From Gammaproteobacteria bacterium (GTDB lineage Bacteria > Pseudomonadota > Gammaproteobacteria > Pseudomonadales > Azotimanducaceae): a stretch of DNA of 32,866 nt. Numbering within the stretch: the stretch's first letter is position 1; each line of letters opens with the position of its first letter. A program made the translations under genes and the position numbers. This document shows positions 1-25,945 of this stretch, one piece after another. The stretch covers positions 6,666-39,531 of the forward strand of contig JAPPIX010000186.1 of the NCBI GenBank assembly GCA_028820495.1. Direction: 5' to 3'. The notes beneath the pieces were generated by a model. It did no database searches. It was not told the DNA's origin and saw nothing but the letters and a program-made list of their open reading frames with translations.

Positions 1-63
1 TCCCCCCCCCGGTCGTTGCTGTCGTCGTCCCCCCCGGCGCCCCCCCCCCCGCCCGGCCCCCCG
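1..63. other. low-complexity poly-C contig edge, probable artefact
   Basis: The first 63 bases are dominated by runs of six to ten cytosines and would translate to a proline/serine string. Recognisable helicase sequence starts abruptly afterwards at the motif II region. No SNF2 helicase has such a proline tract directly before motif II, and motifs I and Ia are absent. I infer low-quality sequence at a contig end rather than a biological N-terminus. Confidence 0.6.
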
Positions 64-2565: not shown

Positions 2566-2642
2566 CTCTTGCTGAATTGTTTGCTTGAATGTTGTTGCAT
2601 AGACGCTACTATTCCCTCATTAGGGCTGGAGTGGGCAGATTC

Positions 2643-2825
2643 ATGGGCAACGGACGAAACGACCGCACTGAGCAGGAGTACGGGCCCGCTGTGCGGTTCG
2701 ACAGTCAAGGCCGTCCATACATCACTGGGGAGGATGTGGCCCGTAGTCCGGTTTGGCGCAAGAAAATCAAGTGGTTGGCGGAACACGGGGACGAACTCCT
2801 TTTCAAGGAGCGATCACAACGCTGA
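2643..2825 (+). CDS. small hypothetical protein (60 aa)
   Basis: A 60-residue protein beginning MGNGRND and rich in charged residues, with no signal peptide or membrane segment; I do not recognise a family. The frame is open further upstream to an ATG at 2589, but that start has no ribosome binding site. The ATG at 2643 has a GGAG about 10 nt upstream and is preferred. It lies 77 nt after the helicase stop and 50 nt before the membrane protein gene on the same strand, so it is probably part of the same operon. It could be a small accessory or regulatory protein, or a non-functional ORF. Confidence 0.45.
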   Translation: MGNGRNDRTEQEYGPAVRFDSQGRPYITGEDVARSPVWRKKIKWLAEHGDELLFKERSQR

Positions 2826-2875
2826 CTGCCTAGCTCCTACCGCATAGAAGAGATCATTCGCTTTGCAGGTTCCTC

Positions 2876-3577: not shown

Positions 3578-3583
3578 ACGGCC

Positions 3584-11800: not shown

Positions 11801-12099
11801 TCGAATGCGGCGTAGGATGCGGCGACGGTCCTTTGGCGGAGAGACGAGTCAGCTCCGGTCGGTCGGCTGAGTTCGTCCAAACCTTCAATGGCAGCTAGTT
11901 CGTAGGCAAGAGCTGCGCGTTCCAGCAATAGGTTGTCGTCTGCATCTTGCGCGAACGAGAAAGTGATCTGTCTGCCGACCGCGCGATGGGCGAGGCGCTC
12001 GTTGACGCTCGCGTTCACGCGTGCAAGTTCGTCGGCACCGATGGCGGCGATGGCCCAATGGTCGTTGAGGGCCTGCAGCATGGGATCGGACAGGTTCAC
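8803..12099 (-). CDS. hamB: Ski2-like DEAD/DEAH helicase, Hachiman HamB-like
   Basis: A 1098-residue superfamily 2 helicase, predicted to act on DNA or RNA with its nuclease partner during phage defence. An all-helical N-terminal region of about 330 residues is followed by Walker A PTSGGKT (about 336-343), VPTRAL (Ia), ATPEKL (Ib), motif II DEAH (445-448), and in the second RecA domain VHHAGL, ATSTIAQGIDFP (about 675-686) and NLAGRAGRLG (about 714-724). The last motif is typical of Ski2-like helicases. The start is GTG at 12099-12097, overlapping the TGA of the upstream gene by 4 nt (GTGA), which indicates translational coupling. HamB of Hachiman and AbpB are helicases of this type encoded after a small nuclease gene. 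The family call is an inference from architecture plus partner. Confidence 0.8.
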   Translation of the reverse strand: MNLSDPMLQALNDHWAIAAIGADELARVNASVNERLAHRAVGRQITFSFAQDADDNLLLERAALAYELAAIEGLDELSRPTGADSSLRQRTVAASYAAFEIRRLLPLPTDALDRIYFVLQISATAYCGDRWTDLRRWFSDEQTDTSTPTVAEVSWDRRLLYRLFNCWIRLFRKHGWDDLDRIREIIAGLRVDQGAYEDELLDRASPASRPIAFRLIALYNWAKATETLATYMLQGEPPDPFGTFDKHFDSAIKAAVASSDAQLEMVVRWLHAAARIMVTNSLWWAARAVNSRVSQFVRSLTQRDHQAMFELLPPQRAALLEQGLLDQAKTAIVIDMPTSGGKTLLAQFRILQALNQFQSEGGWVVYVVPTRALSAQICRRLRRDFEPIGVRVEQLAGAIEIDAFEEELLTDAQAPFDILVATPEKLSLLVRNRKVDRPLALVVMDEAHNLEEKSRGLRIELLLATVKRDCPQTNFLLLMPFVEEPEAIARWLAHDVNAGHAISLGTSPWKPNERIVGLFRAVADDSVRAGWRLVFDTLTATERAMPLHGTHRVGDVRPVDVPKSQVLQSGRQTGLGLQTAAISAAMSGLGTSIAVANNIQTVWKMAQKAASALPDMDVLPDDIRLVQDFLRTEISSDFTLIDLLKKGVGVHHAGLSDDVRALMEWLAESGTLRMLCATSTIAQGIDFPVSSVFLQSRRVPQPGHSVEMAPREFWNLAGRAGRLGHDSIGVVGLCQGSDRDEALEFVSRSTGALVSRLVVLLNELAADEGIDQLSECIWQEQWDDFRCYVAHLWAEKKNLDAVLTDADQLLRHTYGYTSLRNDPAQRDKADALLSATQSYAQKLANMPAGTAELADSTGFSPEGVQRAMRELSTLETKLKPADWTADSLFNGGGRIADLFGIMLKVPQLNKALEEVAGQGTTHTRISEITSDWVNGHSIHDIARTYFQRDSEDTNTRALTDACKAIYRTITNNATWGISALSRVSGIDFDTLSDAEKRSINTLPAMIYHGVRTEDAVLMRMNSAPRTISERLGALYRDTVSPSDNNYSVSQARDFLTHLQDSGWESVRPTGAPLSGSGYRRVWEVLSGETRVAPGSPRS

Positions 12100-12953
12100 G
12101 GAGCGGTCCCCGGTAGTTGTGCCGCCAATGCGGTCCCGATGCCCTCGATTCTGCCAGTGGGGAGGTAGAGCGCAAGCAATTCGATTTCGGTGGCCGTGGG
12201 ACAGTGGCTGCCTAGGGCATCCGTGCGCGCCTTCAGGTCGTCTTCGTGTGGCTGGACGTCACGCACAAGGAACCCCAAGAGCAGAAAGTCGGTCGGATTG
12301 GCCAAGTAGCGGGCTGCGGCGTTCTCGAATTCCTCGCGCCACGGGGCACCGCGGGCACGGTGCGTGAGATAGACGACAAGGGTATTGCGGATGGCTTGAT
12401 CGTCGCGGAGATCCTCAAGCTGCTTCTTTAATCCAGTGGGTCCGTACATGGTGCTAGGCGGATGGTTTTGATCGCTTGAGGTTTTCACCTCGCCGAATGC
12501 CATGCGGTGGCCGTTGGCGTCGGCAGCGAAACCGACAAGGTCGGCGCCCGGTAGGCTGGAACCTCGTTTGCGCTCGTCTCGACCGTCCGGCCAAGGGAAC
12601 CGGCAAGCCCGGTGGTCGGTGAGATAGGTCTCAGCGATGGCTTCTCCGATCCGCCAATCTTCAATGGCTGGCGTGTGCTCAAGCAGCCGCTGCAACCCCT
12701 CCTGGGCGAACTCGGTGTCGGCAACGGCTCCGAGAATCTCGCGGATGTTTGCTTTTCCCTCATCGTCGAACAGGACAGTTGCCATCGGTGCCATGGCTTC
12801 GTTCAGTTGCTCTTCGGTCCAACGCAACCCGCGCCCAGTACAATTGCTGGCGCCAAGTTCGTAAACCGGTTCACCGGCTGGAACAGTCACCCATGCCCTC
12901 GTGAACTTTGTTCGCCCAGCACTTATGCATGTGAGCGCGTTGTAGTGGGGCAA
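12096..12953 (-). CDS. hamA: HamA/DUF1837-like nuclease of a Hachiman-type system
   Basis: A protein of about 285 residues with a PD-(D/E)XK-like signature: GADLVG with Asp138, then 16 residues later FGEVKTS with Glu155 and Lys157. HamA proteins (DUF1837) are nucleases using such an E-x-K motif, kept inactive by HamB until it unwinds foreign or damaged DNA. The length fits the family. The longest start is TTG at 12953, without a clear ribosome binding site. A GTG at 12890 (giving about 264 residues), with AGGG just upstream, is an equally plausible start, so the N-terminus is uncertain. The gene overlaps hamB by 4 nt and lies on the strand opposite to the flanking defence genes. AbpA is the closest alternative assignment within the same broad group. 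Confidence 0.68.
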   Translation of the reverse strand: MPHYNALTCISAGRTKFTRAWVTVPAGEPVYELGASNCTGRGLRWTEEQLNEAMAPMATVLFDDEGKANIREILGAVADTEFAQEGLQRLLEHTPAIEDWRIGEAIAETYLTDHRACRFPWPDGRDERKRGSSLPGADLVGFAADANGHRMAFGEVKTSSDQNHPPSTMYGPTGLKKQLEDLRDDQAIRNTLVVYLTHRARGAPWREEFENAAARYLANPTDFLLLGFLVRDVQPHEDDLKARTDALGSHCPTATEIELLALYLPTGRIEGIGTALAAQLPGTAP

Positions 12954-13387
12954 TCATCACTTATCGTGACTTCCTTGATACAACCTCGACGTCGCCGCTC
13001 AGACGCTTGCGCAGTTCAAGAGGTCACGGCTGCAAGTACGGCATGAGCTACGCCAAGCCGCCACTCCCAGCGGCTGACCCGTCCATTATGACCGGGATGG
13101 CTGTTGGGGGGCAAAGCCACAACAATCGTGGGCAGCCGGTGAAATGCCATGTGCATTTCTTGCCCCGCTCTCATTTTGGCTTGACGCGGAATTACTCGTC
13201 CCATTGGAACCTCGGCCCAAAAACGGGGTGGCTAGCCTTATGATGGGCAAGTGCTCGTCCTGTCGGAAACTGCTCCTAACGCGCCGACGACATCGCTCAC
13301 ACCCTGTGCGCCATTGGCTCAAGACAGCGGGTTGCGGGGCTGCTACAGTTTCCCCAACAGAAAGCGGAGTCGTCCGCGGGAGACGAC
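12954..13387. other. divergent intergenic region, leader of the HEPN operon
   Basis: A 434-nt region between the divergent nuclease gene and the HEPN operon, so it must hold promoters for both. I find no convincing sigma-70 pair and no ORF with a supported start. Two blocks of it, 13159-13200 and 13283-13348, align by eye to 15893-15932 and 16202-16268. This shows that the leader has a degenerate second copy about 2.7-2.9 kb downstream. Confidence 0.6.
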
Positions 13388-13693
13388 GTGCAGGAGCTAA
13401 CGGAACAACAGATCGAAACGGTCGAAGCCATCATTCACGGTGTGCTTAAGGAGGTGCTCGGTCACGTCGAATTCGCCCTTGTCCAGGCCCGCTACGCCGG
13501 CGACCTGTGGGACGACGACTACGGCGACTACTTGAAAATAAACGCTGTTTATCGAGGCGAATGCGAGGATTTGGGTAAGAAGACGCTTGAAGTGCCGCAC
13601 TTGCTCATCCCGCGCCTTGAGGAGGCGGGCTTCACGGCCTATCCCATCGTCTATTACATCTCGAAGTCGGATTGGGACGAGTATCCCGAATGA
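13388..13693 (+). CDS. small acidic protein, partner of HEPN-like protein
   Basis: A 101-residue acidic protein starting at GTG 13388, with GGGAGA about 4 nt upstream. The middle (DLWDDDYGDYLKINAVY) and the end (PIVYYISKSDWDEYPE) recall the general plan of minimal nucleotidyltransferase-like partners of HEPN proteins. The canonical GSxxxG...DxD catalytic motif is not present, so I would call it a degenerate relative at most. The stop overlaps the start of the next gene as ATGA (13690-13693), so the two are translationally coupled. In MNT/HEPN pairs the small partner usually restrains or modifies the HEPN toxin; an antitoxin-like role here is inference. The last 14 codons recur almost unchanged in a remnant at 16281-16322. 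Confidence 0.75.
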   Translation: MQELTEQQIETVEAIIHGVLKEVLGHVEFALVQARYAGDLWDDDYGDYLKINAVYRGECEDLGKKTLEVPHLLIPRLEEAGFTAYPIVYYISKSDWDEYPE

Positions 13694-14178
13694 AGCCGGA
13701 TGACCTAATTGCGACCGCCCGCGATTTGCTGAGCACTGGGCGCGGTGCGCCGCGGCAGTCGAACCTGCGACGGGCGGTCAGCACCACCTACTACGCCTTG
13801 TTTCACTGTTTGGCGCGATGCTGCGCCGACTCCATGGTGGGCGCGGTCGGGGCTAGGCGCAGTGAAGTTGCGTGGCGACAGGCATATCGAGCGCTGGAGC
13901 ATGGGGGGGCCGCCGCAAGATGCCAATTGCCATTGGTTCGCCATTTCCCGGTTGAAGTCCGGAACTTCGCAGGGGAGTTTGCGCGGGCTCAGTTTGCACG
14001 TCACGAGGCCGACTATGAAGCTGGGGGACGGTGGCAAAAGTCCAAGGTGGATCAGCTGATTGCCGACGCGGAATCAGCGCTGCACGACTTCAAGCGGGTA
14101 TCGCTCAAGGACCGCAAGGCTTTTGCCGTTCACCTCACATTGAAGCGCCGTATCCCTCACAACGCGCGTCTGAGGTGA
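13690..14178 (+). CDS. HEPN-like domain protein (possible toxin/effector)
   Basis: A 162-residue all-helical protein beginning MKPDDLIATARDLL. The conserved pattern RRAVSTTYYALFH (about residues 28-40) and the later ARHEADYE are typical of a HEPN-type family often annotated in defence and toxin-antitoxin loci. Many HEPN proteins are RNases with an R-x4-6-H motif. Here the only fit is R-AQFAR-H just before EADY, so RNase activity is possible but unproven. An in-frame ATG lies 18 nt upstream (13672), but the 13690 start is chosen because it forms an ATGA overlap with the preceding stop. The stop TGA overlaps the GTG of the ATPase gene (14175-14178). Overlaps at both ends strongly suggest a complex made with defined stoichiometry. 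Confidence 0.75.
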   Translation: MKPDDLIATARDLLSTGRGAPRQSNLRRAVSTTYYALFHCLARCCADSMVGAVGARRSEVAWRQAYRALEHGGAAARCQLPLVRHFPVEVRNFAGEFARAQFARHEADYEAGGRWQKSKVDQLIADAESALHDFKRVSLKDRKAFAVHLTLKRRIPHNARLR

Positions 14179-15308
14179 AACTAAACCGGATCATCGTTGA
14201 GCGGTACAGATGCATCCGTGACGAAACCATTGAGTTGGGAGGTCTTGATGTCTTCATCGGAGGAAACGCCACAGGAAAGAGTACGATCCTTGATGTTCTT
14301 CGGTTTCTTCAAGACGGCGTCGAGGCACGGGATTTCAAAGCTGCTGTGTCAGCGCGGGGTGGGATCGGGCTATTGGGCTGGAAGGGGAAGGCGGCAAGCG
14401 ACATCCGGCTGGGTGCCCGCATTCAGGACGGGGACGCTGCTTTTGAATGGACTGTATTGCTGGTTCGCGAGAAATATGGCTTCCATGTGGCTGAACAAGT
14501 CGTCCAGTCACGAGAGACCGAACCCCCGGTCACGTTACTGGAGGCTAACAAGGGCGTTGGCTGGTGGCGGTCGGGCGAAACGCTTGAGCGTGTTTCGCTA
14601 GAGGTCGAGCCCACTGGGTGCGCCCTGGCGGCGGCGTCGGTGGATGCGTCGTTTCCCGCCCGCCAAGTCGCAGAGTTCATCAACCATTGGGGGATTCTGG
14701 GCCGTAACCCTTTCCTTCTTCGGCAAGATGGGGCGGGACTGAGCTCAAACAGCTTCGACCCTTATGGGCGGAATCTCGCTGAGACCCTTCACAACCTGAC
14801 CAATTCGTCACCCGAAGTTCTGGAGAGAATCGTCCAGGCCACAGGGGACGTTCTTGGCGTTCCCTCAAGCATTGAGACCCGCGAATTCGGCGGCCGCTTC
14901 CACCTTGTCTTGAGCGATCCGAACCTTGATTTTCCGGTGCCTCAGCTAGCGGCCTCAAGTGGCACGTTGCGGATGCTGGCGCTGGCCACCGCGCTGTTTT
15001 CCGAGCCGAGGGCTGGATTGATTGGCATTGAGGAACCGGAGAACGGCGTTCATCCAACCGCTCTTTCCGGCCTTGTTGACCACTTGCGGAGTGCAAGCCG
15101 CAACACACAGTTTGTGGTCACGACACATTCGCCGTTGTTGTTGGATTGCCTCGATGAGCCTGAGGCCATCAGCGTTGTGCGGCGCGATGGGCATGGAGGC
15201 GCTTCGGTGGCGAAGCAGAACAACTTGGCTGATATGCGCAAGGCGTTGGCCGAGTCCGGCTTCGGCTTGGGGCAATACCACGAAACCCAAGGTTTTGGTG
15301 TCGATTGA
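14175..15308 (+). CDS. AAA/ABC-type ATPase (OLD/RecF-like)
   Basis: A 377-residue ATPase of the AAA_21/OLD-like group. Walker A is GGNATGKST at residues 29-37, after the typical N-terminal strand and RYRCIRDETIEL. The signature region is SSGTLRML (about 258), Walker B is GLIGIEEPENGVHP (about 281-294), and the H-loop is TTHSPLLLD (about 316-324). No TOPRIM nuclease domain follows, so unlike OLD proteins this one carries only the ATPase. The frame is open to an ATG at 14031, but that start would lie deep within the HEPN gene. GTG 14175 is preferred because it makes a GTGA overlap with the HEPN stop and starts exactly where family homology begins. ATPases of this type often act as sensors controlling a separate effector, which fits a HEPN partner. 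Confidence 0.83.
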   Translation: MKLNRIIVERYRCIRDETIELGGLDVFIGGNATGKSTILDVLRFLQDGVEARDFKAAVSARGGIGLLGWKGKAASDIRLGARIQDGDAAFEWTVLLVREKYGFHVAEQVVQSRETEPPVTLLEANKGVGWWRSGETLERVSLEVEPTGCALAAASVDASFPARQVAEFINHWGILGRNPFLLRQDGAGLSSNSFDPYGRNLAETLHNLTNSSPEVLERIVQATGDVLGVPSSIETREFGGRFHLVLSDPNLDFPVPQLAASSGTLRMLALATALFSEPRAGLIGIEEPENGVHPTALSGLVDHLRSASRNTQFVVTTHSPLLLDCLDEPEAISVVRRDGHGGASVAKQNNLADMRKALAESGFGLGQYHETQGFGVD

Positions 15309-15325
15309 TTTTGCGAAGCCTTTCG

Positions 15326-15342: not shown

Positions 15343-15345
15343 AGT

Positions 15346-15891
15346 TCAAGGGGCACTGCCCAGCAACGCTTCCTCCGTCTGCTGAATGATGCTTTCAACT
15401 GTCTCAGCGATGTCCATCGCCGACGTGTCCAGCCAAAACCCCAGCCCCCGCATCTGTGCGCGGAGTTCTTCGTCCAGATAGGAGAATCTCGCCGCGACAT
15501 GCTTCTCCACCCGCTGCTGATCCCGCTCTAGGGCCACTTCAATGGTGGGTGCCAGCACTACCAACCGGAGCGGCCAGCGCGAGAGGGTTTTCCGGTACTG
15601 CGTTAGCTGTAGCCGCAGAATGACATCGTCAACGACCGGCGTGAACCCCTTGGTCATAAGGGAATCGGAAAGCAGCGCCGCATTCCGCGCCCCAAGCTCC
15701 AACTGGGCGTTTGACTCGGCCAGAGGCTCTTGGCCGGGGGCGACGTATCCGCCCACAACCATCTCCCGCACCCGATCAACCTCAATGTGTGCCGATCGGG
15801 GGAGCCTTTCGGCAAGCGCCTTGGAAACCGAGGTCTTCCCAGAACCGGGGATGCCGGTGATAAGCCATATGCAGTCCGTGGTGAGTGGCAT
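15346..15891 (-). CDS. P-loop kinase (AAA_33/zeta-toxin-like)
   Basis: A 181-residue P-loop kinase-like protein. Walker A is GIPGSGKT at residues 13-20, followed by an acidic position in HIEVDRVREMV, a second acidic stretch TPVVDDV, and a basic region ERDQQRVEKHVAARF that could be the lid. This layout fits small kinases such as chloramphenicol phosphotransferase, gluconate-kinase-like and zeta-toxin-like proteins; the substrate cannot be told. The frame runs open upstream to 16179, but that extension crosses a hairpin element and reads as non-protein sequence. ATG 15891, with a purine-rich AAAGGGAGCAGGGCAGGA just before it, is the start. It is convergent with the ATPase gene. Its upstream region matches the region upstream of the HEPN operon, implying that an ancestral kinase/HEPN divergent pair existed here. 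Confidence 0.75.
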   Translation of the reverse strand: MPLTTDCIWLITGIPGSGKTSVSKALAERLPRSAHIEVDRVREMVVGGYVAPGQEPLAESNAQLELGARNAALLSDSLMTKGFTPVVDDVILRLQLTQYRKTLSRWPLRLVVLAPTIEVALERDQQRVEKHVAARFSYLDEELRAQMRGLGFWLDTSAMDIAETVESIIQQTEEALLGSAP

Positions 15892-15966
15892 CCTGCCCTG
15901 CTCCCTTTTGGCTTGACGGGATTCTACTTGTCTCAAGCCAGCTCCCACCCCGGCCCGCCGGGTGAC

Positions 15967-16145
15967 GTGCGGGGAATAAGCGTCTCCGTGCGGGAAACTG
16001 ATCGCGCAATGCACCGGCGCTTCGCGCCGTCCGAGGGCAAGATGCCCTCGATCCGAGGTGGACGCTCGTTTTGGGCGGGATCCCGAACCAAGGGCGTCCC
16101 GCCCTCGCTTTGAATCGGGGTTTTTCATGGAATCCTTGGCTGAAT
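15967..16145 (+). repeat. hairpin-rich REP/MITE-like element, copy 1
   Basis: An insertion of about 179 nt bracketed by the 8-bp direct repeat CGGGTGAC (15959-15966 and 16146-16153). It contains three hairpins: CGGCGC/GCGCCG at 16016-16030, GAGGGC-AAGAT-GCCCTC at 16033-16049, and AGGGC-GTCCC-GCCCT at 16091-16105. The homologous leader at 13200-13283 lacks it and serves as an empty site; the length difference between the two leaders is about 183 nt. No transposase is encoded and no clear terminal inverted repeats are visible. A non-autonomous mobile or REP-type element is the best reading. Confidence 0.6.
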
Positions 16146-16201
16146 CGGGTGACCAGCTTGATGGTGCCAGTCCCTGCACTGTTCGAAATTGCCAGAAGTG
16201 T

Positions 16202-16352
16202 GCTGACGAGATCGTTTAGACGCTGTGCGCCATCGGCTAACGACAGTCTGTTGTGGGGGGTGCTAAAGTGCGCCGGACCACTACACCATCTCGAAGTCGG
16301 ATTGGGATGAGTATCCAGAGTGAAGCCGGATGACCTCAAAGCGATTGCCCGC
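16202..16352 (+). pseudogene. remnant of a second small-gene/HEPN module
   Basis: Bases 16281-16352 align without gaps to 13651-13722, with 61 of 72 positions identical. They encode the same last 13 residues of the small acidic protein (one difference), a stop, and the overlapping start of a HEPN reading frame (MKPDDLKAIAR), after which homology ends. Bases 16202-16268 align to the leader at 13283-13348 with one gap. The two blocks are 302 nt apart in the intact copy but only 12 nt apart here, so about 290 nt covering nearly the whole first gene is lost. Several differences in the coding tail are synonymous, suggesting the copy was functional before it decayed. Confidence 0.72.
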
Positions 16353-16380
16353 AATGGGGGTTCCAATTTTCATGTATATG

Positions 16381-16408: not shown

Positions 16409-16453
16409 TGTTTTGGAGCGCCGGATGGGTTGCCGGGCGCGAAGGGTGTCCAA

Positions 16454-19400
16454 GTGAGCGCTGTACAGGTCGAAAGCTGGCTTGAGGGGCTTGGCTATTC
16501 AGACCAGCCGGAGTTTTTGCATCGCCGCGGCGAGGTGGTTCCCCCTACACACCCTTACGCGCTGGAAATCCACGCCCTGCTGCAGGGCGATGGGACCGTG
16601 CGAGCTCGGGCTGTATTCGACGTGGAAGGTGTCCCGACCATCGTGTTTCTTGATGACGACGCCAACAGTGGTGTGCGGGTGCATGCTTTGGATGAGGTTC
16701 GCAAGCGAATCTGGAACCAGAATCTAGCCACTATAGTGCTCCATGTGCGGGGCGAGCGGGCAGTCGCGCTCCCTGCTCGGAAGCTGGAATCAACCGAGTC
16801 CGAGCACTCGCTGCGATTAGAGGAAGTTCGGCGAGACGGGCCGTTTTCCGCATCTGATGTCCAGTCGGCCAGGCTGACGACACGTCTTCCGGATTGGTTC
16901 GACAGGGAAGCCCGCGTTGATCACAAGCTGCTCGACAACATTTCCAAGGCCGTCCAGAGACTGACTCAGGTAGGCTTCGATGGGGGCGGAGAAGAGCCGC
17001 AGCGCAAGAAGCTAGCCGAATTGCTCATGGGGGAGATTCTCTTCGTCTCCTATCTCGAACATCGCGGAATTGTTGGCAAGACTTATCGCAGCAGACGCGA
17101 TGTGAGACCACTGCTCGATATGGTCGGCGGCGAGGACCGACAAGGCGTCCAGAGGCTCATTGAATCGCTTCGGTCGGACTTCAACGGGGACTTCCTCGCG
17201 GGCGACAGTCTTGATCCGTGGCGCCTCCTCACCCCGCTCGGATACGATCTCCTGAGCCAATTCCTGCGCCGCACGGACATGCAAACGGGCCAGGAGGACT
17301 TTTGGAACTACGACTTTAGCCATATCCCGGTTGAGCTCCTGTCGGGCTTATACGAGATGTTTCTATCGCCGAAGGAGCAAACCAAGCAAGGAGCCTTCTA
17401 CACGCCTAGGCATCTGGCAGCTCTGGCGGTGGACCAAGCGTTTGAGCACTCGGAGAATCCGCTAGCGGAGACCATTTTCGACGGGGCATGTGGGTCCGGC
17501 ATTCTCCTCACCACTGCTTACAGGCGGCTGATCGCCCTATCGGAGCAGCAGCAGGGCCAGCGGCTCACCTTCGCTGAGCGGTGCGAACTTCTGCAGCGAA
17601 CCATATTCGGCGGTGACACGAACCCAATGGCTTGCCGCGTTACGGCGTTCAGTCTCTACCTTTCCATCTTTGAAGGGCTTAAACCGGCCGACATCATTCA
17701 AGCTCAAGAACGCGATGCGGCCAAGCTCCCAACCCTTAAGGGTTCAAACTTGGCCGTGGGGCCGGAAGCTGGCGACTTCTTCAAGGATGATCATTCGTTC
17801 GCGGGGAGGTGCTTCTCCCTGGTCATTTCCAATCCACCATGGCGCGAACCCGCAGGAGACGAACAGACCACGGCGGATGCTTGGGCCGACAGCAGCGGCG
17901 CCCCGGTCACAAGGCGGCAGATCGCTGGAGCCTATGCGCTTCGCGCCTTGGAGTTCCTGGAGAATGGCGGTCAAGCCTGCCTACTCCTTCCGGTCGGGCA
18001 GTTACTGGGCGACACCAGCGTGAAGTTCGTCACCCGCCTCATGTGGCGGTATCAGCCGCTTCGGATCATCAACTTTGGTGATCTGCAGGGCCTCCTCTTT
18101 CCTGCAGCCAGCCATGCCTGTCACTTGTTTGTCGGCCAGCGCAGGCAAGACCACGATCGGCTGGTCTTGCCGTTCCGCGAAACCTTCGACTACTGCGTTC
18201 CTAAAGCCGATTTCACGGTCTCGCTGGGCCACTTCACATTGCAGTCAGCGGATTTGCACCGTCTCCAAACCGTCTCGGTTGTGGATGATCCCCAGCGGCT
18301 GGTCAGGTTGATGTGGGGTGATGCTAGCGATTTGTCAATTTGGGCTAGGCTTAGCGTTCGCGGAACCTTGGGGGAGTTCGCCAAGTCGGCGCGGGGTGGT
18401 TGGACTAGGGTTTGCCGCAAGGGTGTTCACTTGACCGACAAGGGGCGAACCAGTGTGTCGGCCGAGCCCTTGCGTGATTTGCCGCATCTTCGGGCCGATG
18501 CACTGAAGACTGGATCCCCGATGATCCACAAGGACCTTTTGGGGGCATGGCCTAAGGACAAGACGACCGTAGTTGGGCTAAATGATGCGCTCTTGCGCGT
18601 GTTCGATGGCCCCAGAGTTGTTTTCCCGGATGGTTTCTCGAAGCAAGAACTCAACCTGCGCACGCACTACTACGGCGGCAAGGCTACGTTCACTCACAGC
18701 GTCGGCGTGATCAGCAGCAGCAGAGAAGAAGATGCGCCACTGTTGAAGTTTGTGGCCGTTTACCTCCGGTCCAACCTAGCCCGGTACTTCCTCATGCTGT
18801 GTGCTTGGAAGATGCTCTGCGAGCGCAATGGGGTTCACCTCAAGGATGTGAAAAAGTTCCCTTTTTTTGAGCCGGAGGCTGCTCCAAACCCCGCCGCGGC
18901 CCGCAGGGCTCTCTTGTCCATTTGCGCACACATGGATGACCTTGCTGAGTTGCCTTCCCACCAGCAACCGGGGCGTTTCAAAGAACTGCGTCGAGAACTC
19001 GACCAGCTTGTGTATGAGTACTTCGGGTTGACCGGTGAAGAACAAGCGCTGATCGAGGAGACTGTTGCGCTGCTGATGCCGTCAGTCCGGCCTCGCAGCT
19101 TGACAGGCCTCAACACTCTTGCTCAGCGAATAGTGGATTTTGAGGGTTACAACATCTATGCAAGTGCCCTTGGCGAGGCGCTTACTTTGTGGCGGATGAG
19201 AATGAATGGAGACGGGCGCTTCCGCGTTACCGTAACCGGCAGCCAACCGACCCGTGAGGGGCCTTTGGGAGTCGTTCGCATCGACCGCGAAGGGGGTGAT
19301 GGGGCGCCAGTATGCAAAGTGCTCGTCGATGACAGTGTGGTCCTGCAGACCCTCGCAATGCTCCAGAGCTCCGGACTGCGCCGGATTTGGTCTGGTCCCG

Positions 19401-19549
19401 CCCTGAGTCTCGTTCCCGACACTCATGTCTGGATTGATGGTTCGCTCTATCTGGTTCGACCGGCGGCCAAGCGGAATTGGACGATCCGCCAAGCTCGCAG
19501 AGACGCAGAGCACGTTGTGCGGATTGTTCAGCGAAACGCCACTGCATAG
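16454..19549 (+). CDS. N6-adenine DNA methyltransferase (1031 aa)
   Basis: A gamma-class amino-methyltransferase. A 300-residue N-terminal region precedes the family-typical phrase GLYEMFLSPKEQTKQGAFYTPRHLA, followed by SAM motif I DGACGSGILLTTAYR, GGDTNPMACRVTAFSLYLS and catalytic motif IV NPPW (about 17830). A specificity-like region fills the C-terminal half. It is distinct from the Eco57I-like enzyme at 3584-8656. The frame is open to TTG 16430, but GTG 16454 has GAAGGG exactly 7 nt upstream and is preferred. The next gene, 18 nt downstream, encodes a PD-(D/E)XK-like protein, so the two could form a restriction-modification-like pair, or serve the DruE-like helicase that follows. Druantia type II carries a cytosine methyltransferase, so an adenine enzyme beside DruE would be unusual. 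The function is secure at the methyltransferase level; the pathway is inferred. Confidence 0.82.
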   Translation: MSAVQVESWLEGLGYSDQPEFLHRRGEVVPPTHPYALEIHALLQGDGTVRARAVFDVEGVPTIVFLDDDANSGVRVHALDEVRKRIWNQNLATIVLHVRGERAVALPARKLESTESEHSLRLEEVRRDGPFSASDVQSARLTTRLPDWFDREARVDHKLLDNISKAVQRLTQVGFDGGGEEPQRKKLAELLMGEILFVSYLEHRGIVGKTYRSRRDVRPLLDMVGGEDRQGVQRLIESLRSDFNGDFLAGDSLDPWRLLTPLGYDLLSQFLRRTDMQTGQEDFWNYDFSHIPVELLSGLYEMFLSPKEQTKQGAFYTPRHLAALAVDQAFEHSENPLAETIFDGACGSGILLTTAYRRLIALSEQQQGQRLTFAERCELLQRTIFGGDTNPMACRVTAFSLYLSIFEGLKPADIIQAQERDAAKLPTLKGSNLAVGPEAGDFFKDDHSFAGRCFSLVISNPPWREPAGDEQTTADAWADSSGAPVTRRQIAGAYALRALEFLENGGQACLLLPVGQLLGDTSVKFVTRLMWRYQPLRIINFGDLQGLLFPAASHACHLFVGQRRQDHDRLVLPFRETFDYCVPKADFTVSLGHFTLQSADLHRLQTVSVVDDPQRLVRLMWGDASDLSIWARLSVRGTLGEFAKSARGGWTRVCRKGVHLTDKGRTSVSAEPLRDLPHLRADALKTGSPMIHKDLLGAWPKDKTTVVGLNDALLRVFDGPRVVFPDGFSKQELNLRTHYYGGKATFTHSVGVISSSREEDAPLLKFVAVYLRSNLARYFLMLCAWKMLCERNGVHLKDVKKFPFFEPEAAPNPAAARRALLSICAHMDDLAELPSHQQPGRFKELRRELDQLVYEYFGLTGEEQALIEETVALLMPSVRPRSLTGLNTLAQRIVDFEGYNIYASALGEALTLWRMRMNGDGRFRVTVTGSQPTREGPLGVVRIDREGGDGAPVCKVLVDDSVVLQTLAMLQSSGLRRIWSGPALSLVPDTHVWIDGSLYLVRPAAKRNWTIRQARRDAEHVVRIVQRNATA

Positions 19550-19567
19550 GGCATCCGGGGACTATCC

Positions 19568-20242
19568 ATGGACGTTGTTCCTGAGTGGCTGGGAACCTTT
19601 CCGCTTCAGAAGGCAATAGCTGCTACCGAAGCGCTCATGCAAGGATGGCACGACCGCACTTCCCACAATCGCCAAGACTTCAGCCCGAAAACCAAGGAAA
19701 CGGACCTGACCAAACGGCTGAAGATTTACGTGGAAGACCATGTTGGTCCCAACCGCGGGTTGCTCGGCATGTGGGCAGCCGAAAACACCATCGGCAGACT
19801 AGATCCGTCCACCGGGGAGCTTGTGGAGGAACGACGCACGGACATCGTCTTTGGCTGGAATGACGATAGGCGAAGTTTCCAGCTTGTGTTTGAATTCAAG
19901 CGGCTGAGAAGAGGGAAAAAGTACAGAGATCAATACCTTGGCGAACAGGGCCTCGCCCGGTTCGTCACCGGGATTTACAGCAAGGGAGAAGCCATCGCGG
20001 CGATGGTGGGCGTCCTCCTTGCGCCGGAGGTTGAAATCGTCCCACCGATTAAGGCCGCACTGACCGAACCGAACCGAGCCAAGGCGCTTCGCTTGCGGAA
20101 GGCGGAGAATGGCCAGCCCTACAGCGAACCATCCACTCTATTTCCGAAAGCGGCTTTCGATACCGAGCACCACCGAGACCAGCCGCTGGCGCCACCCCAT
20201 GGATACATCCGCGAGGCGCACTTCTTCGTGAAATTTGGATAG
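19568..20242 (+). CDS. PD-(D/E)XK-like nuclease (224 aa)
   Basis: A 224-residue protein with a plausible PD-(D/E)XK nuclease core: Glu44 in a helix (KETDLTKRLK), Asp92 in RRTDIVFGW, then FQLVFEFK with Glu109 and Lys111. The spacing D-x16-E-x-K is normal for this fold. It begins with ATG 18 nt after the methyltransferase stop and probably shares its transcript. I do not recognise a named family. It may be the cleaving partner of the methyltransferase, or an accessory subunit of the DruE-like system encoded 285 nt downstream. The motif was assigned by eye, so nuclease activity is an inference. Confidence 0.7.
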   Translation: MDVVPEWLGTFPLQKAIAATEALMQGWHDRTSHNRQDFSPKTKETDLTKRLKIYVEDHVGPNRGLLGMWAAENTIGRLDPSTGELVEERRTDIVFGWNDDRRSFQLVFEFKRLRRGKKYRDQYLGEQGLARFVTGIYSKGEAIAAMVGVLLAPEVEIVPPIKAALTEPNRAKALRLRKAENGQPYSEPSTLFPKAAFDTEHHRDQPLAPPHGYIREAHFFVKFG

Positions 20243-20310
20243 GTCCTCCGGTCAATCCCGTTCCGAATCACGTCTATATCAACGCGGGGCTTCCACGGAA
20301 TTCCGAATCT

Positions 20311-20440
20311 CCGGATGGAAAGCGCCTTCCAACAACCCAATCGAAGGCAAGATGCCCTTGGTCCGGGGGACCCGCTTCGGTCCGGGGATGATGCACAGTT
20401 CGGGCGTTGACCTTCGGACCGAGGGCGTCCCGCCCTCGTC
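20311..20440 (+). repeat. REP/MITE-like hairpin element, copy 2
   Basis: A second member of the hairpin family. The first hairpin (20343-20359) shows AAGAT as loop with one stem mismatch. The second, GAGGGC-GTCCC-GCCCTC, is perfect at 20421-20437. The two are about 60 nt apart, as in copy 1, and in the same orientation. It fills most of the gap between the nuclease gene and the DruE-like gene; the rest of that gap holds no supported gene. I see no clear direct repeats at its ends. Confidence 0.65.
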
Positions 20441-20527
20441 TTGAACCAGGGTAGTTCCGTGCGGGGATGATGTGCTTTACTCGCCCGCCATGCGTAGGAG
20501 CGCCACCCACCGACCTGAGCCGCACCC

Positions 20528-23500
20528 ATGGCCCTGAACCCGATCGCCTACACGGAGAACGTCCTCAAGAGCTTCTTACGCTATCAGTTCACCGCCTACG
20601 CCTTCACCGACCAACGGCTGCGAAAGCAAATGCGCCGCCTCCTTTCATTGGATGAAACCCGCTCATCGCCGCTGCTCAAAGGTCCCTACATCAGCCTGTC
20701 CCGGCCATTCCGCCAAGGTGCATCCGTTGAGTCCCTGATCGGTGAAGGCTTGCTGCACCCTCACTTGCGCGAACGCATTGCGCCCGAAATCTCGCATCTG
20801 TACAGCCACCAGGAAAAAGCCATTCGGGCCATCGCTGCGGGCCGCACCACGCTGGTCTCCACAGGCACTGGCTCCGGTAAAACGGAGTGCTTCCTTTATC
20901 CCATCGTCAGCCATTGCTTGAAGTTGCGCGACCAAGGGGCGCCGCCGGGCATCAGCGGGGTCATCATCTACCCCATGAACGCATTGGCGGAGGACCAGTT
21001 GATGCGCTTGCGGCTGTTGCTCGCAGGCACCCAAGTACCCTTCGGCCTGTACGTGGGCAAAACACCGGAGCGTGAAGCGGAAGTGGCCGGTGTGCGTCTG
21101 CCTGCCGGGTCTTCCCGAGCGGACTACGAGGCACGGCTGGCTCAAGCGCAGCAAGAGGGCAGTGGCGAGACGGTCTATCCGCCGGAGGAGCTCTGCTCTC
21201 GGGAACGGATGCGCAGCGCTGGGCAGCAACCGCGCATTCTGCTCACCAACGTCAAGCAGTTGGAGCTGCTGCTGACGCGGGCTCAGGACGTCGATCTCTT
21301 TGCTGATGCCCGCTTGGACTTCCTAGCCTTTGATGAGGCGCACACCTTCACCGGGGCGCTGGGTGCGGAAACCGCTTGCCTGACCCGGCGTCTGCGGTCG
21401 TTTTGCGGCCGCGGCCCGGAGCAGACCGCTTGCGTCGCCACCTCCGCAACCATTGTTGATGAGCAAACGCCGGATGCGGCCCGTATGTTTGCTTCCCGCT
21501 TCTTTGGTGTGCCGATGGAATCAGTGGCCCCAATCGGCGAAGACTATGAGGAGGAAGCCTGGTCACCGCAGCGGCATCTGCCGCCCGCCCCGAGTGGCAA
21601 CCCGGCCGAGCTTTTGAATCGCTGCGTTCAGGCGGTCGAGGACGAAGACCCTGCGGGGGGCAAGGTGCGGGCGGTGTACCAAGCCTTGGCAGGCCAAATG
21701 CTGGGCGATGGCCCTTGGCCGGGGGCTTTGCGCCAAGCGCTTTCGGAAAACGAACTGGTCTGCCGTTTGAACGACGAACTGGCCGTGCCCCGGCCCTTGG
21801 CTGATCTGCCGCCGGTCTTGGAACGGGCGGTGAATCGGTCAGTCAGCGAAGCGGAGATACTGGCTTGGCTCACGTTGGGTGCCGCAGCGCGGCATGAGGG
21901 CCGCCCCTTGCTCCGTCCAGTGACCCATGCGTTCGTGCGCGGCATCGGCGGCGCGGTCGTCACTTTCCCCGCGGATGCCGACGGCCCGCGCCTGTGGCTG
22001 GCAGCGGAGGACGAGGCAAGCCCGCAAGAGGGCGAAGTTGACGACGGCTCCGCAAGCGCCCATGCGCACTTTCCCATAACCACCTGCAACACCTGTGGGC
22101 AGCACTACTACATCAGCTATCTCAAAGACTTTTCCTACGAGCGCAACCAGCCGGGCGGCGGCGAAGTGGGCGCCACGGGAACCTTTTGGTTGCCGCAAGC
22201 GGAGTCGTTGGGCGGCAAGCGAGCCGTGCTCATCGACCGCTTGATCGCCGGCGATGACGACGAGGATGTGCCCAGCGCCCGTACCACGCTGCTGTACTTT
22301 TGCCGCCACTGCGGATGCGCTCACGCAGACGACGAGGGTCCGTGCCAGAGTTGCGGCCATCCCGAATCACGGGTGGCGCTGAGCGCCATTCGTCAGAACC
22401 GCAAGAATCCCGGCATGCTTAGCAGTTGCCTATCCTGTGGATCGAATGGCCGCTTGGTGGACGGGCACTACCGGGAGCCGGCCCGGCCGGTGCGGGCCAC
22501 CAATGTGGCCGATGTTCATGTGCTGGCTCAGGACATGGTGCATCGCGCAGAGCGGCCCCGCCTGTTGGTGTTTTGCGACAATCGGCAGGACGCCGCGTTT
22601 CAGGCCGGCTGGATGAAGGACCATGCCCGCCGGTTCCGGTTGCGCGCATTGATGGCGGAGGGGCTGCACGCCGGGTCTCGCTCTGTGGGCGACCTCAGCG
22701 CTTGGCTGGTGGATCAGTTGGAGGCCGATGTCGCCCTCTCCGTGGCGCTCATCCCTGAAGTGTGGCAGGTCGCCCGACGTGAAGGCCCCGGTGGACGCCA
22801 CGAAGAGGAGCGGCGCAAATACTTGCGCATTCAGGTGCTGCGGGAACTGACCTTGTCCTCGCGCCAGACCTTGGGGCTTGAGCCTTGGGGGCGCATGAAG
22901 GTGGACTACGATGGCCTTGACGAGTCGCTGCCTTGGATTCAGGAGCAGGCGCATCGGTTGGGGCTGTCCCCACAGAGGTTGCGCGAGGGGGTCGCCAGCG
23001 TTCTGGACTACCTGCGCCGCAAGCGGGTTCTCCACGATCCGGAGTACGGCGTCTTCACTCGCTACTGGATAGACGGCAACAAGGAAATTCAGCAGGGCTA
23101 TCTGCCCAACTTCCGCAGCCCCAGCGCCACCAAGCTGCGCCGCGACTCAACCGACAAGCCCGAATGGGTCACTCAATGGCTGAGTGACGCCGGCGACACC
23201 ACTTTGAGGCAGATTGCCCGCAAGTGGGGCGCTGCGTCCGATGCCGTGGCCGATCTGTTGGAGAGCCTGTTCGGTCTGTTGGTGGAGCGGGGCTTGCTCA
23301 CCCCCGTGCAGCTCAAGGGGTCTCAAGGCAAGCCGTTGCCGAACGTCAGTGGCGTTTACCAAGTCAACGCCGATCGCCTGCGCCTAAGCCCGAACCGGGG
23401 CGTTTACCGATGCGCGAGCTGTCGGCGTACCAGCGTTCGCTCCACGCCCAATGACCGTTGCCCTGCCTGGCGCTGCGAAGGCGAGCTGCAATGGGTGCAG

Positions 23501-25945
23501 GAAGACGAGGACAACTACGACCTGCGGGTGCTCGACGGCGCATACGCCATGCTGCGTCCTGAGGAGCACACCGCGATGGTGCCACCGGATCAGCGCGAGC
23601 GTCTTGAGAACCTGTTTCGGGGTAGTTCCGATGCGGTGAACTGCTTCGTCTGCACCCCGACCTTGGAACTGGGCATCGACATTGGCCAACTCGATGCCGT
23701 GCTGATGCGCAACGTGCCGCCATTGCCCGCCAACTACTGGCAGCGGGCCGGTCGCGCCGGTCGCCGCCACCGCATGGCGGTGGACCTGACCTACTGCCGC
23801 CCCGCCTCCCACGACCGGGCCTATTTCGCTGACCCTCTAAAACTGCTGGCCGGGCGCATCGACCCGCCCGCGTTTAACTTGCGTAATCAGCTAATGGTGG
23901 CCAAGCATGTTCACGCCACCGTCTTGACCCAGTTGCAGCGCTACGCACGGGATGCGTCTCGGCCGGAAGCTGAGCGGGACGTGGTCCGCTCCGCGCTTGA
24001 TCAGTGCCTGCCGCGCCGGGTTGCGCCCTATCTTTTCGATGGCGGCAAATTGCGCAACGCACCCTTCGACTTTAGCCCGCTGCGCACGGCACTGGCCATC
24101 GTTGGCCCTGAACTGGCTGCTGCGGTGGAAGAGGTGTTCCGCCAAGGCTGGCCTCAGGGGGATGGCGATGTCGTCGCCCCCGCCGAGCTGCATAGCCACT
24201 TGGAGGCATTCTCCGACGAATTGGAATTGGTGGTGGCACGCCTTCGGCGCCGCTTGAATTGGGCGATGGAGCAGATTCGCCGACTCAATGTGCGACGGGA
24301 AGAGGAAGGGACGCTATCGCCGCTGGACGAAACCCTGTTTCGCCGCTGCGACCGGTTGGTGAGGCGGCTAAAGGGCGCAACCGGTCGAAGCCGCCGGGAA
24401 GCGGAGGGCCATGACGACTTCAACACTTTTAACGTCTTGGCTGCGGAAGGCTTCCTGCCTGGTTATGGGTTGGAAATCGGTTCCATCATGGGCTGGGCGG
24501 AGATTCCCTTTTGGCAGACCGGGGCGATGAACTTCGTGCTGCCGCGCCCACCTGCTACGGCGCTGCGGGAGTACGTGCCCGGCAACCTGATCTATGCCAA
24601 CGGCCACCGCTTCGTGGCCCGCCGCTTCCACCGGGATCTGTCTGAAGATCAGGCGGAACTGCCTACCTACGAGGTGTCTCCTGAGCGGCAGGCGGTACGG
24701 CCTGCGGCTGAGAGCGCCATGGCGATGCTTGCCGGTCAGCGTCTTCGTGCGATGTCAGTTTGCGATGCGGACTTGATACATAGCTCACAGATTTCCGATG
24801 AAGAGGAGTTGCGCTTTCAGTTGGGTGTCGCGGTGTACGGCTTGGAGCTCGGCCAGCATAGCGGAGGCAGGGAGTTGCGTTGGGGCAGCCAGCCGCTTCA
24901 TCTTCGCCGGGGCGTGCGTCTGCGGTTGGTTAATGTGGGCGCCTCTCGATCCATCGAAGGCGAACAGCGCTACGGCTATCCGGTCTGCACGGTCTGCGGG
25001 CACAGCGTTTCCCCATTGTCCAGCGAACGGCAGCGAGAGGATTTCACCGAATCCCACACGGAACGGTGTGGACGGTCCCCGGAGGCCATCGGCTTCTTTG
25101 CCGACGTGACCGCCGATGCGCTCTCGCTCAACGGCTGCGAGAGCGCGGAGTCAGCCTATAGTGTGCTTGAGGCCTTGCGGTTCGGCGCAGCCCAAGTCTT
25201 GGACATGCATACCGAAGATTTGCAGATTCTGGTCATCGGCCACGTGGACCGGGATGACGTGGATGGGCTGCTGTGGGATCCCATGCCCGGCGGCTCGGGT
25301 CTGTTGAATCGAATTTGCGAACGCTTTGATGATGTGGTCCGTGCTGCCAAGGGGTTGGTGGCCCACTGCCCCGCCGCGTGCCCACATTCGTGCATCGACT
25401 GTCTGCAGACCTTCCGCAACGCCTACTACCATCGCTACCTGAATCGCATGCTGGCGGCTGAACATCTGGAGAACTGGGGCGAAGCGCTCACCTTTGGCCA
25501 CGAAATACCACCCCTGCAACCGACGGAAACCCCACCGCTTAGCGCCGTGCCGACCAATGACGCGGAAGCCAAGCTGCGCCACCTGCTGCTGGCAGCGGGC
25601 TTCAACGAGGGCACCCGGAACGAGCAGATTCGCTTGGACCGGGTTCTGGGCAGCACCACGCCGGATGTGATCTATCGAGCCGAGGACGACATAGCGGATG
25701 AAGGCCTATGCATTTACCTAGATGGCCTGAGCCAGCATCTTCACGGCGACCCTGAGCGGGCGGCAACAGACCGCGCCATCCGTGACGCGCTGCGCAACAA
25801 CGGCTACGAGGTGATTGAAATCAGCGTTGTGGACCTTGACGACGTGGGCGCCATGACCCGCCACTTTCGACGCTTGGCAAGCTATCTGGGCGATCGGGAC
25901 CTGCGGGCTCGATTGCGCGGCGATCAATCGTGGTTCAGCGTTTGA
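20528..25945 (+). CDS. druE: DruE-like helicase-DUF1998-Vsr-like nuclease fusion (1805 aa)
   Basis: A very large superfamily 2 helicase. Walker A is GTGSGKTE (about 113-120), then YPMNALAEDQ, motif II DEAH (269-272), and in the second RecA-like domain LELGIDIG (about 1047) and QRAGRAGRR (about 1073). Cysteine pairs, probably zinc binding, occur in CNTCG (about 519), CRHCGC with CQSCG (about 593-620) and CASC...CPAWRC (about 961-985). A DUF1998 domain ends in CPAACPHSCIDC (about 1613-1625). The last 120 residues have a Vsr/MTES_1575-like nuclease pattern: Asp1713 in TPDVIY, then YLDGLSQH with Asp1732 and His1737. Size and order fit DruE, the core protein of Druantia. ATG 20528 lacks a strong ribosome binding site. 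It ends 11 nt before a convergent metabolic gene and marks the island edge. MrfA/YprA-like repair helicases share the first modules but are far shorter. Confidence 0.8.
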   Translation: MALNPIAYTENVLKSFLRYQFTAYAFTDQRLRKQMRRLLSLDETRSSPLLKGPYISLSRPFRQGASVESLIGEGLLHPHLRERIAPEISHLYSHQEKAIRAIAAGRTTLVSTGTGSGKTECFLYPIVSHCLKLRDQGAPPGISGVIIYPMNALAEDQLMRLRLLLAGTQVPFGLYVGKTPEREAEVAGVRLPAGSSRADYEARLAQAQQEGSGETVYPPEELCSRERMRSAGQQPRILLTNVKQLELLLTRAQDVDLFADARLDFLAFDEAHTFTGALGAETACLTRRLRSFCGRGPEQTACVATSATIVDEQTPDAARMFASRFFGVPMESVAPIGEDYEEEAWSPQRHLPPAPSGNPAELLNRCVQAVEDEDPAGGKVRAVYQALAGQMLGDGPWPGALRQALSENELVCRLNDELAVPRPLADLPPVLERAVNRSVSEAEILAWLTLGAAARHEGRPLLRPVTHAFVRGIGGAVVTFPADADGPRLWLAAEDEASPQEGEVDDGSASAHAHFPITTCNTCGQHYYISYLKDFSYERNQPGGGEVGATGTFWLPQAESLGGKRAVLIDRLIAGDDDEDVPSARTTLLYFCRHCGCAHADDEGPCQSCGHPESRVALSAIRQNRKNPGMLSSCLSCGSNGRLVDGHYREPARPVRATNVADVHVLAQDMVHRAERPRLLVFCDNRQDAAFQAGWMKDHARRFRLRALMAEGLHAGSRSVGDLSAWLVDQLEADVALSVALIPEVWQVARREGPGGRHEEERRKYLRIQVLRELTLSSRQTLGLEPWGRMKVDYDGLDESLPWIQEQAHRLGLSPQRLREGVASVLDYLRRKRVLHDPEYGVFTRYWIDGNKEIQQGYLPNFRSPSATKLRRDSTDKPEWVTQWLSDAGDTTLRQIARKWGAASDAVADLLESLFGLLVERGLLTPVQLKGSQGKPLPNVSGVYQVNADRLRLSPNRGVYRCASCRRTSVRSTPNDRCPAWRCEGELQWVQEDEDNYDLRVLDGAYAMLRPEEHTAMVPPDQRERLENLFRGSSDAVNCFVCTPTLELGIDIGQLDAVLMRNVPPLPANYWQRAGRAGRRHRMAVDLTYCRPASHDRAYFADPLKLLAGRIDPPAFNLRNQLMVAKHVHATVLTQLQRYARDASRPEAERDVVRSALDQCLPRRVAPYLFDGGKLRNAPFDFSPLRTALAIVGPELAAAVEEVFRQGWPQGDGDVVAPAELHSHLEAFSDELELVVARLRRRLNWAMEQIRRLNVRREEEGTLSPLDETLFRRCDRLVRRLKGATGRSRREAEGHDDFNTFNVLAAEGFLPGYGLEIGSIMGWAEIPFWQTGAMNFVLPRPPATALREYVPGNLIYANGHRFVARRFHRDLSEDQAELPTYEVSPERQAVRPAAESAMAMLAGQRLRAMSVCDADLIHSSQISDEEELRFQLGVAVYGLELGQHSGGRELRWGSQPLHLRRGVRLRLVNVGASRSIEGEQRYGYPVCTVCGHSVSPLSSERQREDFTESHTERCGRSPEAIGFFADVTADALSLNGCESAESAYSVLEALRFGAAQVLDMHTEDLQILVIGHVDRDDVDGLLWDPMPGGSGLLNRICERFDDVVRAAKGLVAHCPAACPHSCIDCLQTFRNAYYHRYLNRMLAAEHLENWGEALTFGHEIPPLQPTETPPLSAVPTNDAEAKLRHLLLAAGFNEGTRNEQIRLDRVLGSTTPDVIYRAEDDIADEGLCIYLDGLSQHLHGDPERAATDRAIRDALRNNGYEVIEISVVDLDDVGAMTRHFRRLASYLGDRDLRARLRGDQSWFSV

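Follow-up and report, generated by a model that had tools for sequence, protein, structure and literature searches.

A probable ARMADA-like helicase-nuclease in a gammaproteobacterial contig, with apparently exchangeable cargo between its core genes

Results

The window analysed here, a stretch of 32,866 nucleotides from contig JAPPIX010000186.1 of an Azotimanducaceae gammaproteobacterium (assembly GCA_028820495.1, positions 6,666 to 39,531, forward strand), encodes a YprA/DUF1998 helicase of 1805 amino acids (aa) with a Vsr-like C-terminal motif. The original prediction had read this helicase as a Druantia DruE protein and joined it to two genes preceding it on the same strand, an N6-adenine methyltransferase and a small PD-(D/E)XK protein, either as one undescribed Druantia variant or as an independent restriction-modification pair beside an orphan DruE. 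All three plus-strand open reading frames (ORFs) are real and keep their coordinates. The orphan reading does not hold, since the helicase has two conserved partners, a DrmD-like and a PglX-like gene at 1..8656 of the same window, which had been overlooked. Very probably the 1805-aa protein is the ArmC-like helicase-nuclease of an ARMADA-like system that includes the genes at 1..2565 and 3584..8656, and the 11.9 kb between PglX and YprA is cargo. The core features are the following.

1..2565, plus strand: DrmD/BrxHII-like SNF2 helicase, ArmA-like core gene (PADLOC DrmD, 410 bits)
3584..8656, plus strand: PglX/DrmMI-like adenine methyltransferase, ArmB-like core gene (PADLOC; Pfam Eco57I)
20528..25945, plus strand: YprA/DUF1998 helicase with Vsr-like C-terminal motif, ArmC-like core gene, 1805 aa (Pfam, PglX-like neighbour, tree)
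25565..25771, plus strand: Vsr-like motif residues E1680 to D1748 (nine positions invariant in 76/76)

In the main text of a 2025 preprint, ARMADA combines a YprA helicase, a BrxHII-like helicase and a PglX-like methyltransferase (Bell et al., PMC12458937), and all three are present in the window. PADLOC was run on eight window proteins, leaving 14031..15308 and 15346..16179 outside the scan, and the best 25 matches per protein were considered; the library dates from 2023 and thus predates the ARMADA preprint. The PglX-like gene scored 1247 bits against REase_MTase_IIG and 377 bits against DrmMI. The DrmD-like gene reached 429 bits against NCBIfam DISARM_DrmD and stayed under the cut-off of 610, in a copy that is incomplete: a run of N directly before window base 1 (about 6655-6665 of record L009) obscures its N-terminus. 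Because of that run, an in-frame stop read upstream of the window is not taken as a sign of a broken drmD. The helicase itself carries the Pfam domains DEAD, Helicase_C and MZB (the MrfA zinc-binding domain).

Relatives comprised 82 loci whose helicases are 47-95% identical to that of the window: 80 genome loci (L019-L098, the top-ranking ones among 191 confirmed candidates), the viral contig L018 and the Synechocystis plasmid L012. Sixteen viral loci (L099-L114) at 23-40% identity were left out of this set. Neighbourhoods were surveyed by tblastn of ten window proteins, by ORF maps and by whole-genome searches for 19 loci. A PglX-like gene lies upstream of the helicase on the same strand in 60 of the 82 loci; 16 of the remaining 22 offered less than 3 kb of upstream DNA to inspect, and in four more (L043, L058, L062, L066) a PglX-like gene sits on a different contig of the same genome. 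The sibling locus L030/L117 encodes a YprA protein 95% identical to ours, and its DrmD gene, most of PglX and YprA share 92-94% DNA identity with the window. A helicase search at the level of the order (E 1e-100) matched one of 194 genomes, the window's own. On contig C210 of that genome (L011 7898-14263) there is a second YprA/DUF1998 helicase of 2121 aa, which groups with the type II references described below. We also observed that the helicase of L029, whose record is labelled as a metagenome-assembled genome (MAG) of Klebsiella pneumoniae, a seemingly doubtful label, is 65% identical to the window's and groups with relatives from environmental MAGs.

The C-terminus of the helicase was compared across 75 full-length relatives, a set from which helicases lacking one open frame of more than 1700 aa were excluded. 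Nine residues (E1680, T1710, D1713, Y1730, D1732, G1733, H1739, G1740 and D1748) are invariant in all 76 aligned sequences, window included, and would fit a nuclease active site of the Vsr type. The Vsr-like pattern of the original prediction is present, but its histidine was misplaced by two residues: H1737, the histidine of LDG-x3-H, is not conserved among relatives, and H1739 is the invariant one. An AlphaFold2 model of residues 1150-1805 (predicted local distance difference test score, pLDDT, 75; predicted template modelling score, pTM, 0.51) contains long helices at about 1183-1205, 1218-1260 and 1265-1282, and Foldseek matched it to MrfA at E 1.5e-6 but with a TM-score of 0.20.

For placement against known ARMADA types, plasmids of E. 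coli, Haematobacter and Pseudanabaena served as type II references (gene order SNF2, methyltransferase, YprA, UvrD), and Nocardioides and Roseomonas (YprA first), Haloquadratum, Natrinema and Thermus as type I references; the type labels of these plasmid references (5 + 3) are our own, taken from gene order. E. coli Druantia III was the outgroup. In a 30-row tree, 18 window-clade rows fall on one side of a branch with a Shimodaira-Hasegawa-like approximate likelihood ratio (SH-aLRT) support of 100, the references for both ARMADA types cluster away from these rows (support 96), and the helicase lies distant from the E. coli Druantia III DruE. Judged from this tree, the helicase clade is separate from both sets of references. 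An earlier tree of helicases did not resolve the base, and the deep branching order is unsure because of long branches and a quick tree method. A Pfam scan of the six ORFs past 25945 found no GajB-like UvrD helicase after YprA in the window; the clade member L081 does have a UvrD gene there. More generally, the genes right after YprA vary among relatives (L068 15955-18159, L057 15403-17181, L081 15751-17796), with AAA_5, GmrSD_N and UvrD among them.

The interval between PglX and YprA varies widely in length among these loci. It measures 11.9 kb in the window and 0 to 18 kb across relatives: among 60 loci it is below 0.4 kb in 16, 0.4-2 kb in 15 and at least 2 kb in 29, and it reaches at least 10 kb in 13. 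(The L077 gap, computed as -5414 through ORF calling, was counted as below 0.4 kb, like its siblings L073 and L096.) At the DrmD|PglX junction, intervening genes occur in only two of 36 loci (L081 and L117, about 1 kb each), and in the window, where the insert encodes 233 aa; values for L124, L040 and L044 were ORF-calling artefacts, and these loci were counted as contiguous from their homology ends. The gap class (at least 2 kb versus less) requires 15 changes on the helicase tree. None of the seven plasmid references arranged as helicase, methyltransferase, YprA has an insert larger than a single gene of 282 aa; in the Thermus reference, two hypothetical proteins occupy the methyltransferase position.

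Cargo differs even between close relatives. A single homologous pair of cargo ORFs (at least 150 aa) was found between L037 and L063 (helicases 97.5% identical; 9 versus 8 ORFs), between L039 and L065 (95.7%; 9 versus 8) and between the window and L030 (94.8%; 7 versus 8); L036/L051 (93.6%) and L024/L032 (87.2%) share two pairs each. Overall, for 53 of 192 cargo ORFs the cargo of another locus contains a homologue, some cargo ORFs lie on the opposite strand, and the cargo DNA forms a mosaic that includes some long stretches common to different loci. In five of eight compared pairs (window/L117, L121/L127, L116/L118, L051/L124 and L067/L068), DNA homology breaks within the 3' part of PglX, which is expected to be the target-recognition part; the break is absent in L119/L126 and L036/L051 and ambiguous in L019/L092. 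In the window, the DNA match of PglX to L117 ends at 7723, and the gene is divergent from about that point on. PADLOC matches in sampled cargo include DarG, Dsr1, a cytosine methyltransferase, E1-E2 and PDC-S01.

The genes and other features lying between the core genes of the window are as follows.

2876..3577, plus strand: 233-aa protein between the DrmD-like and PglX-like genes, no family assignment
8803..12099, minus strand: cargo, PDC-M23B, HamB (Hachiman)-like DEAD helicase (PADLOC PDC-M23B, 1382 bits)
12096..12953, minus strand: cargo, PDC-M23A protein, partner of PDC-M23B (PADLOC PDC-M23A, 318 bits)
13262..14179, plus strand: cargo block common to window and sibling (88% DNA identity to L117 18107-19024)
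14031..15308, plus strand: cargo, AAA_21 (AbiEii-like) ATPase (Pfam AAA_21, E 1.6e-28)
15346..16179, minus strand: cargo, AAA_33-type P-loop protein (Pfam AAA_33, E 2.2e-9)
16287..16355, no strand: 87% duplicate of 13657-13725, shortly before the methyltransferase (repeat search, alignment)
16454..19549 (longest ORF from TTG 16430), plus strand: cargo, N6-adenine methyltransferase (Pfam N6_Mtase, PADLOC, NPPW)
19568..20242, plus strand: cargo, PD-(D/E)XK-like protein, methyltransferase partner, 224 aa (conserved residues, adjacency)

The 233-aa protein gave no match in PADLOC, Pfam or NCBIfam and has a 48% identical counterpart in L117, in which DrmD and most of PglX show 92-93% DNA identity. 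The PDC-M23A/B pair (8803-12953), a HamAB/Hachiman-like candidate defence system on the reverse strand inside the cargo, finds no DNA match in L117 for either gene. The shared block at 13262..14179 contains a pair of small ORFs, at 13388..13693 and 13672..14178, which resemble MNT/HEPN on visual inspection only and have no match in a Pfam scan. The duplicate at 16287..16355 is perhaps a remnant of cargo shuffling. Rfam gave no matches in the window, and ARAGORN found no genes. A dispersed repeat lies at about 16028-16130 and 20342-20457, one copy on each side of the methyltransferase and the 224-aa protein; we rejected the two copies as specific brackets of this pair, since an element with 48 matches in the window's own genome is a common dispersed repeat.

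The pair itself looks like a separate type-II-like restriction-modification unit, independent of the helicase, as far as motifs and gene neighbourhoods indicate. The methyltransferase ORF runs from TTG at 16430 to 19549, with an in-frame GTG at 16454. Its predicted N6-adenine specificity held up (Pfam N6_Mtase, E 7.7e-15; NPPW motif invariant in 4/4 aligned sequences, window included), and PADLOC matched it to REase_MTase_IIG (PDLC03623) at 784 bits. The D-x16-E-x-K motif noted in the 224-aa protein is likewise present (D92-x16-E109-F-K111) and, with E44, invariant in 6/6 aligned sequences including the window, so that it goes beyond chance. The protein matches no family in PADLOC, Pfam, NCBIfam or PHROG, unlike a standard standalone type II partner, and no credible PDB chain; an AlphaFold2 model on a three-row alignment reached a pLDDT of 37 and was discarded.

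The pair is absent from all 82 helicase loci and from all 13 long gaps fetched whole, and L117 has no DNA match to the segment that holds it (14487-20420) apart from the small duplicate at 16281-16355. It is found adjacent in eight other places: on plasmids of five lineages, on two viral contigs and in one genome. On the plasmids (Paracoccus, Bradyrhizobium, Pseudosulfitobacter, pRSB223 and Ciceribacter) this helicase is unmatched within 14 kb flanks; in the 12 Pseudosulfitobacter records the methyltransferase match covers the C-terminal half only, on pRSB223 the methyltransferase is split over two ORFs, and the Ciceribacter nuclease is 28% identical. The helicase is also absent from the up to 8 kb examined on the two viral contigs and from about 1.5 kb examined on each side in genome G511. 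A third viral contig (L152) carries a 39% identical methyltransferase without the nuclease, and a first viral scan using the methyltransferase confirmed none of ten candidates. On Bradyrhizobium pBbPL7HG1 and on viral contig L149, the end of one gene of the pair overlaps the other by 4 nt. Among 398 genomes of the phylum, our own included, the nuclease profile matches five at E 1e-8 and the methyltransferase profile four at E 1e-60; both genes are adjacent, as distant relatives, in G385, the methyltransferase stands alone in G351, and G516 and G227 have weak nuclease matches only.

Many helicases of the window clade extend beyond the Vsr-like region. Such tails, of 108-205 residues, occur in 47 of the 75 full-length relatives (examples: L041 15407-15925, L068 15410-15955 and L019 15401-15934, plus 44 other loci), and Pfam Peptidase_S24, a LexA/UmuD-like family, matches 39 of the 47 (E up to 0.001; best 9.2e-14). 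The window's helicase has no such tail and either lost it or never had one. A PDB search with a profile of all 47 tails placed the unrelated 8fre first (E 0.014), followed by LexA structures at E 0.026-0.07, two of which covered LexA residues 75-184. Many tails contain an Ala-Gly site, a serine of the GxSM type and a lysine of the VKxY type, which we take to be a LexA-type cleavage site and catalytic pair. By regular expression, the serine pattern was counted in 34 tails, the lysine pattern in 35 and the Ala-Gly-type site in 42; all three, with a stricter lysine pattern, occur together in 23 of the 47.

A home-made S24 profile was built from the tails themselves, so its matches on them hold by construction, and the Pfam count is the independent figure. 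Seven tails that match this profile do not contain the serine pattern. The S24 label by this profile (41 rows) requires 11 changes on the tree. With the same profile, no separate S24 gene was found in the tail-less loci, the window or 12 reference loci; its reach is limited, because it misses a gene annotated as an S24 peptidase in L128.

Discussion

The gene set described here is that of ARMADA, and our analysis adds what looks like a lineage of its own, in which a slot of exchangeable cargo is proposed and tails resembling LexA are frequent. Like ARMADA I and II, the window combines a YprA/DUF1998 helicase bearing a C-terminal Vsr-like motif with a BrxHII-like SNF2 helicase and a PglX-like methyltransferase, and its order (SNF2, methyltransferase, YprA) is that of type II and also of archaeal and cyanobacterial type I loci. 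It differs from the type I and II references in the separate clade of its helicase, in the cargo of as much as 18 kb that separates PglX from YprA in its clade and in the C-terminal S24 tail of many window-clade helicases, and from type II in that YprA is not followed by a UvrD/GajB-like gene in the window. The passages on insertions, cargo and gene order in PMC12458937, searched in its main text, contain no description of a PglX|YprA slot, and the terms S24, LexA, UmuD, peptidase and protease never occur there, its supplementary files being outside the search. Literature searches turned up no helicase-S24 fusion, within a scope that excluded supplementary files, so that one may already be published; a search on embedded or nested defence genes gave no match at the thresholds set.

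Several observations weigh against reading the helicase as an ArmC-like nuclease with exchangeable cargo. PADLOC ranks it nearest to DruE models (best DruE3, 334 bits), and approximately unbiased (AU) tests, based on the quick tree with its long branches, reject a grouping of the window clade with type I (p 0.0001) as well as with type II (p 0.023). The N-terminus of the DrmD-like gene is missing behind the run of N, and in two of the loci without an upstream PglX-like gene (L054 and L083; genomes G204 and G212) no PglX-like match was found at E 1e-30. Profile support for the nuclease is weak: the Vsr-like region matches 3r3p at E 0.058, REase_MTES_1575 matches 3 of 15 sequences with a best E of 0.016, and no Vsr chain appears among the 50 Foldseek matches listed for the model of residues 1150-1805 (TnsA, E 1.1). 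As for the slot, both of two cargo ORFs are common to L027 and L074 (77% identical helicases), L121 and L127 share 4.6 kb of cargo at 95.6%, and L116 and L118 share about 5 kb in pieces. Finally, the cargo shows no clear excess of PADLOC matches over the flank downstream of the helicase (6/20 versus 4/20 random ORFs of at least 150 aa, drawn from 185 cargo and 164 flank ORFs), and we dropped the idea of defence enrichment of the cargo on this comparison.

The last result is also what ordinary defence-island accretion would give, in which case the PglX|YprA junction would be no special slot. Extra genes within core loci are known from BREX, where nuclease effectors are reported as embedded (PMC12839542) and brxU lies between brxC and pglX (PMC8565348). 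Like those loci, ours hold unrelated defence genes between the core genes of a PglX-type system; unlike them, they have a different core and cargo that reaches 18 kb and differs between near-identical cores. Since the DrmD|PglX junction of the same loci is interrupted so rarely (2/36) and the PglX|YprA junction opens repeatedly (15 changes on the tree), we regard accretion as possible but doubtful.

A less likely explanation is that the swapped genes are recruited to work with the ARMADA core, for example by cutting DNA that the core has unwound. The cargo does sit inside the core gene set, with gaps of at least 2 kb in 29/60 loci, and ARMADA II is reported to act in synergy with an adjoining Druantia III (PMC12458937). 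Such cooperation is hard to reconcile with loci in which the core genes are contiguous (16/60 gaps below 0.4 kb), with near-identical cores carrying differing cargo and with cargo ORFs on the opposite strand.

We consider a single Druantia variant made of the methyltransferase, the PD-(D/E)XK protein and DruE highly improbable. The three genes share a strand and are closely spaced, and PADLOC scores the helicase highest against DruE models. DruE of Druantia I-III is a related YprA/DUF1998 helicase, and the type-specific partners of Druantia are DruA-D, DruM/F/G or DruH. No druH, druM or other partner model is among the matches listed for the eight window proteins. Some Druantia-type helicases are stated to have Vsr domains in the main text of PMC12458937. 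The co-occurrence check went against the proposal, and we rejected it because the pair is in 0/82 helicase loci and recurs without the helicase nearby; a 95% identical sibling also does without the pair. Of the alternative offered by the original prediction, the independence of the pair stands and the orphan status of the helicase falls. The pair resembles a standalone type II restriction-modification system in that an N6 methyltransferase adjoins a small D-x16-E-x-K protein, a likeness known from adjacency and motifs. A remnant of DISARM class 1, a system that includes drmC (main text of PMC12458937), is just as improbable and was rejected on gene content: DrmD and DrmMI models match two upstream genes, but a single ORF encodes the helicase together with DUF1998, in place of a split into DrmA and DrmB, no DrmC-like model is among the matches listed for the eight window proteins, and the curated DrmD cut-off is missed, though by an incomplete copy.

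If the ARMADA-like reading is right, its mode of action can be proposed by likeness to ARMADA II, whose protection is direct and non-abortive according to PMC12458937. The PglX-like enzyme would mark host DNA, its variable C-terminal part determining the sites, while the helicases would engage unmarked incoming DNA and track along it, and the Vsr-like domain would cut that DNA. The methyltransferase-nuclease pair in the cargo may methylate its own site and cut the same site when unmethylated. Slot contents would change faster than the core, probably via recombination in the conserved flanking genes. In tailed relatives, the bond between the nuclease and the S24 tail could be cleaved in response to RecA on phage DNA or on damaged DNA, which would switch the activity of the enzyme. 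Only tentatively do we suggest that these loci form a third ARMADA lineage, with a PglX|YprA slot that swaps defence genes, often together with the target-recognition part of PglX, and a helicase-nuclease that is often fused to a self-cleaving S24 domain of LexA/UmuD type and thereby wired directly to the SOS signal.

The locus illustrates how adjacency alone can mislead: the conserved partner gene of the helicase ends 11.9 kb away from it, owing to unrelated genes within the system. Should the slot be real, new defence genes can be sought in ARMADA-like loci, between two fixed markers. If the S24 tail cleaves like LexA, one could test directly whether a nuclease of phage defence is tied to the SOS signal.

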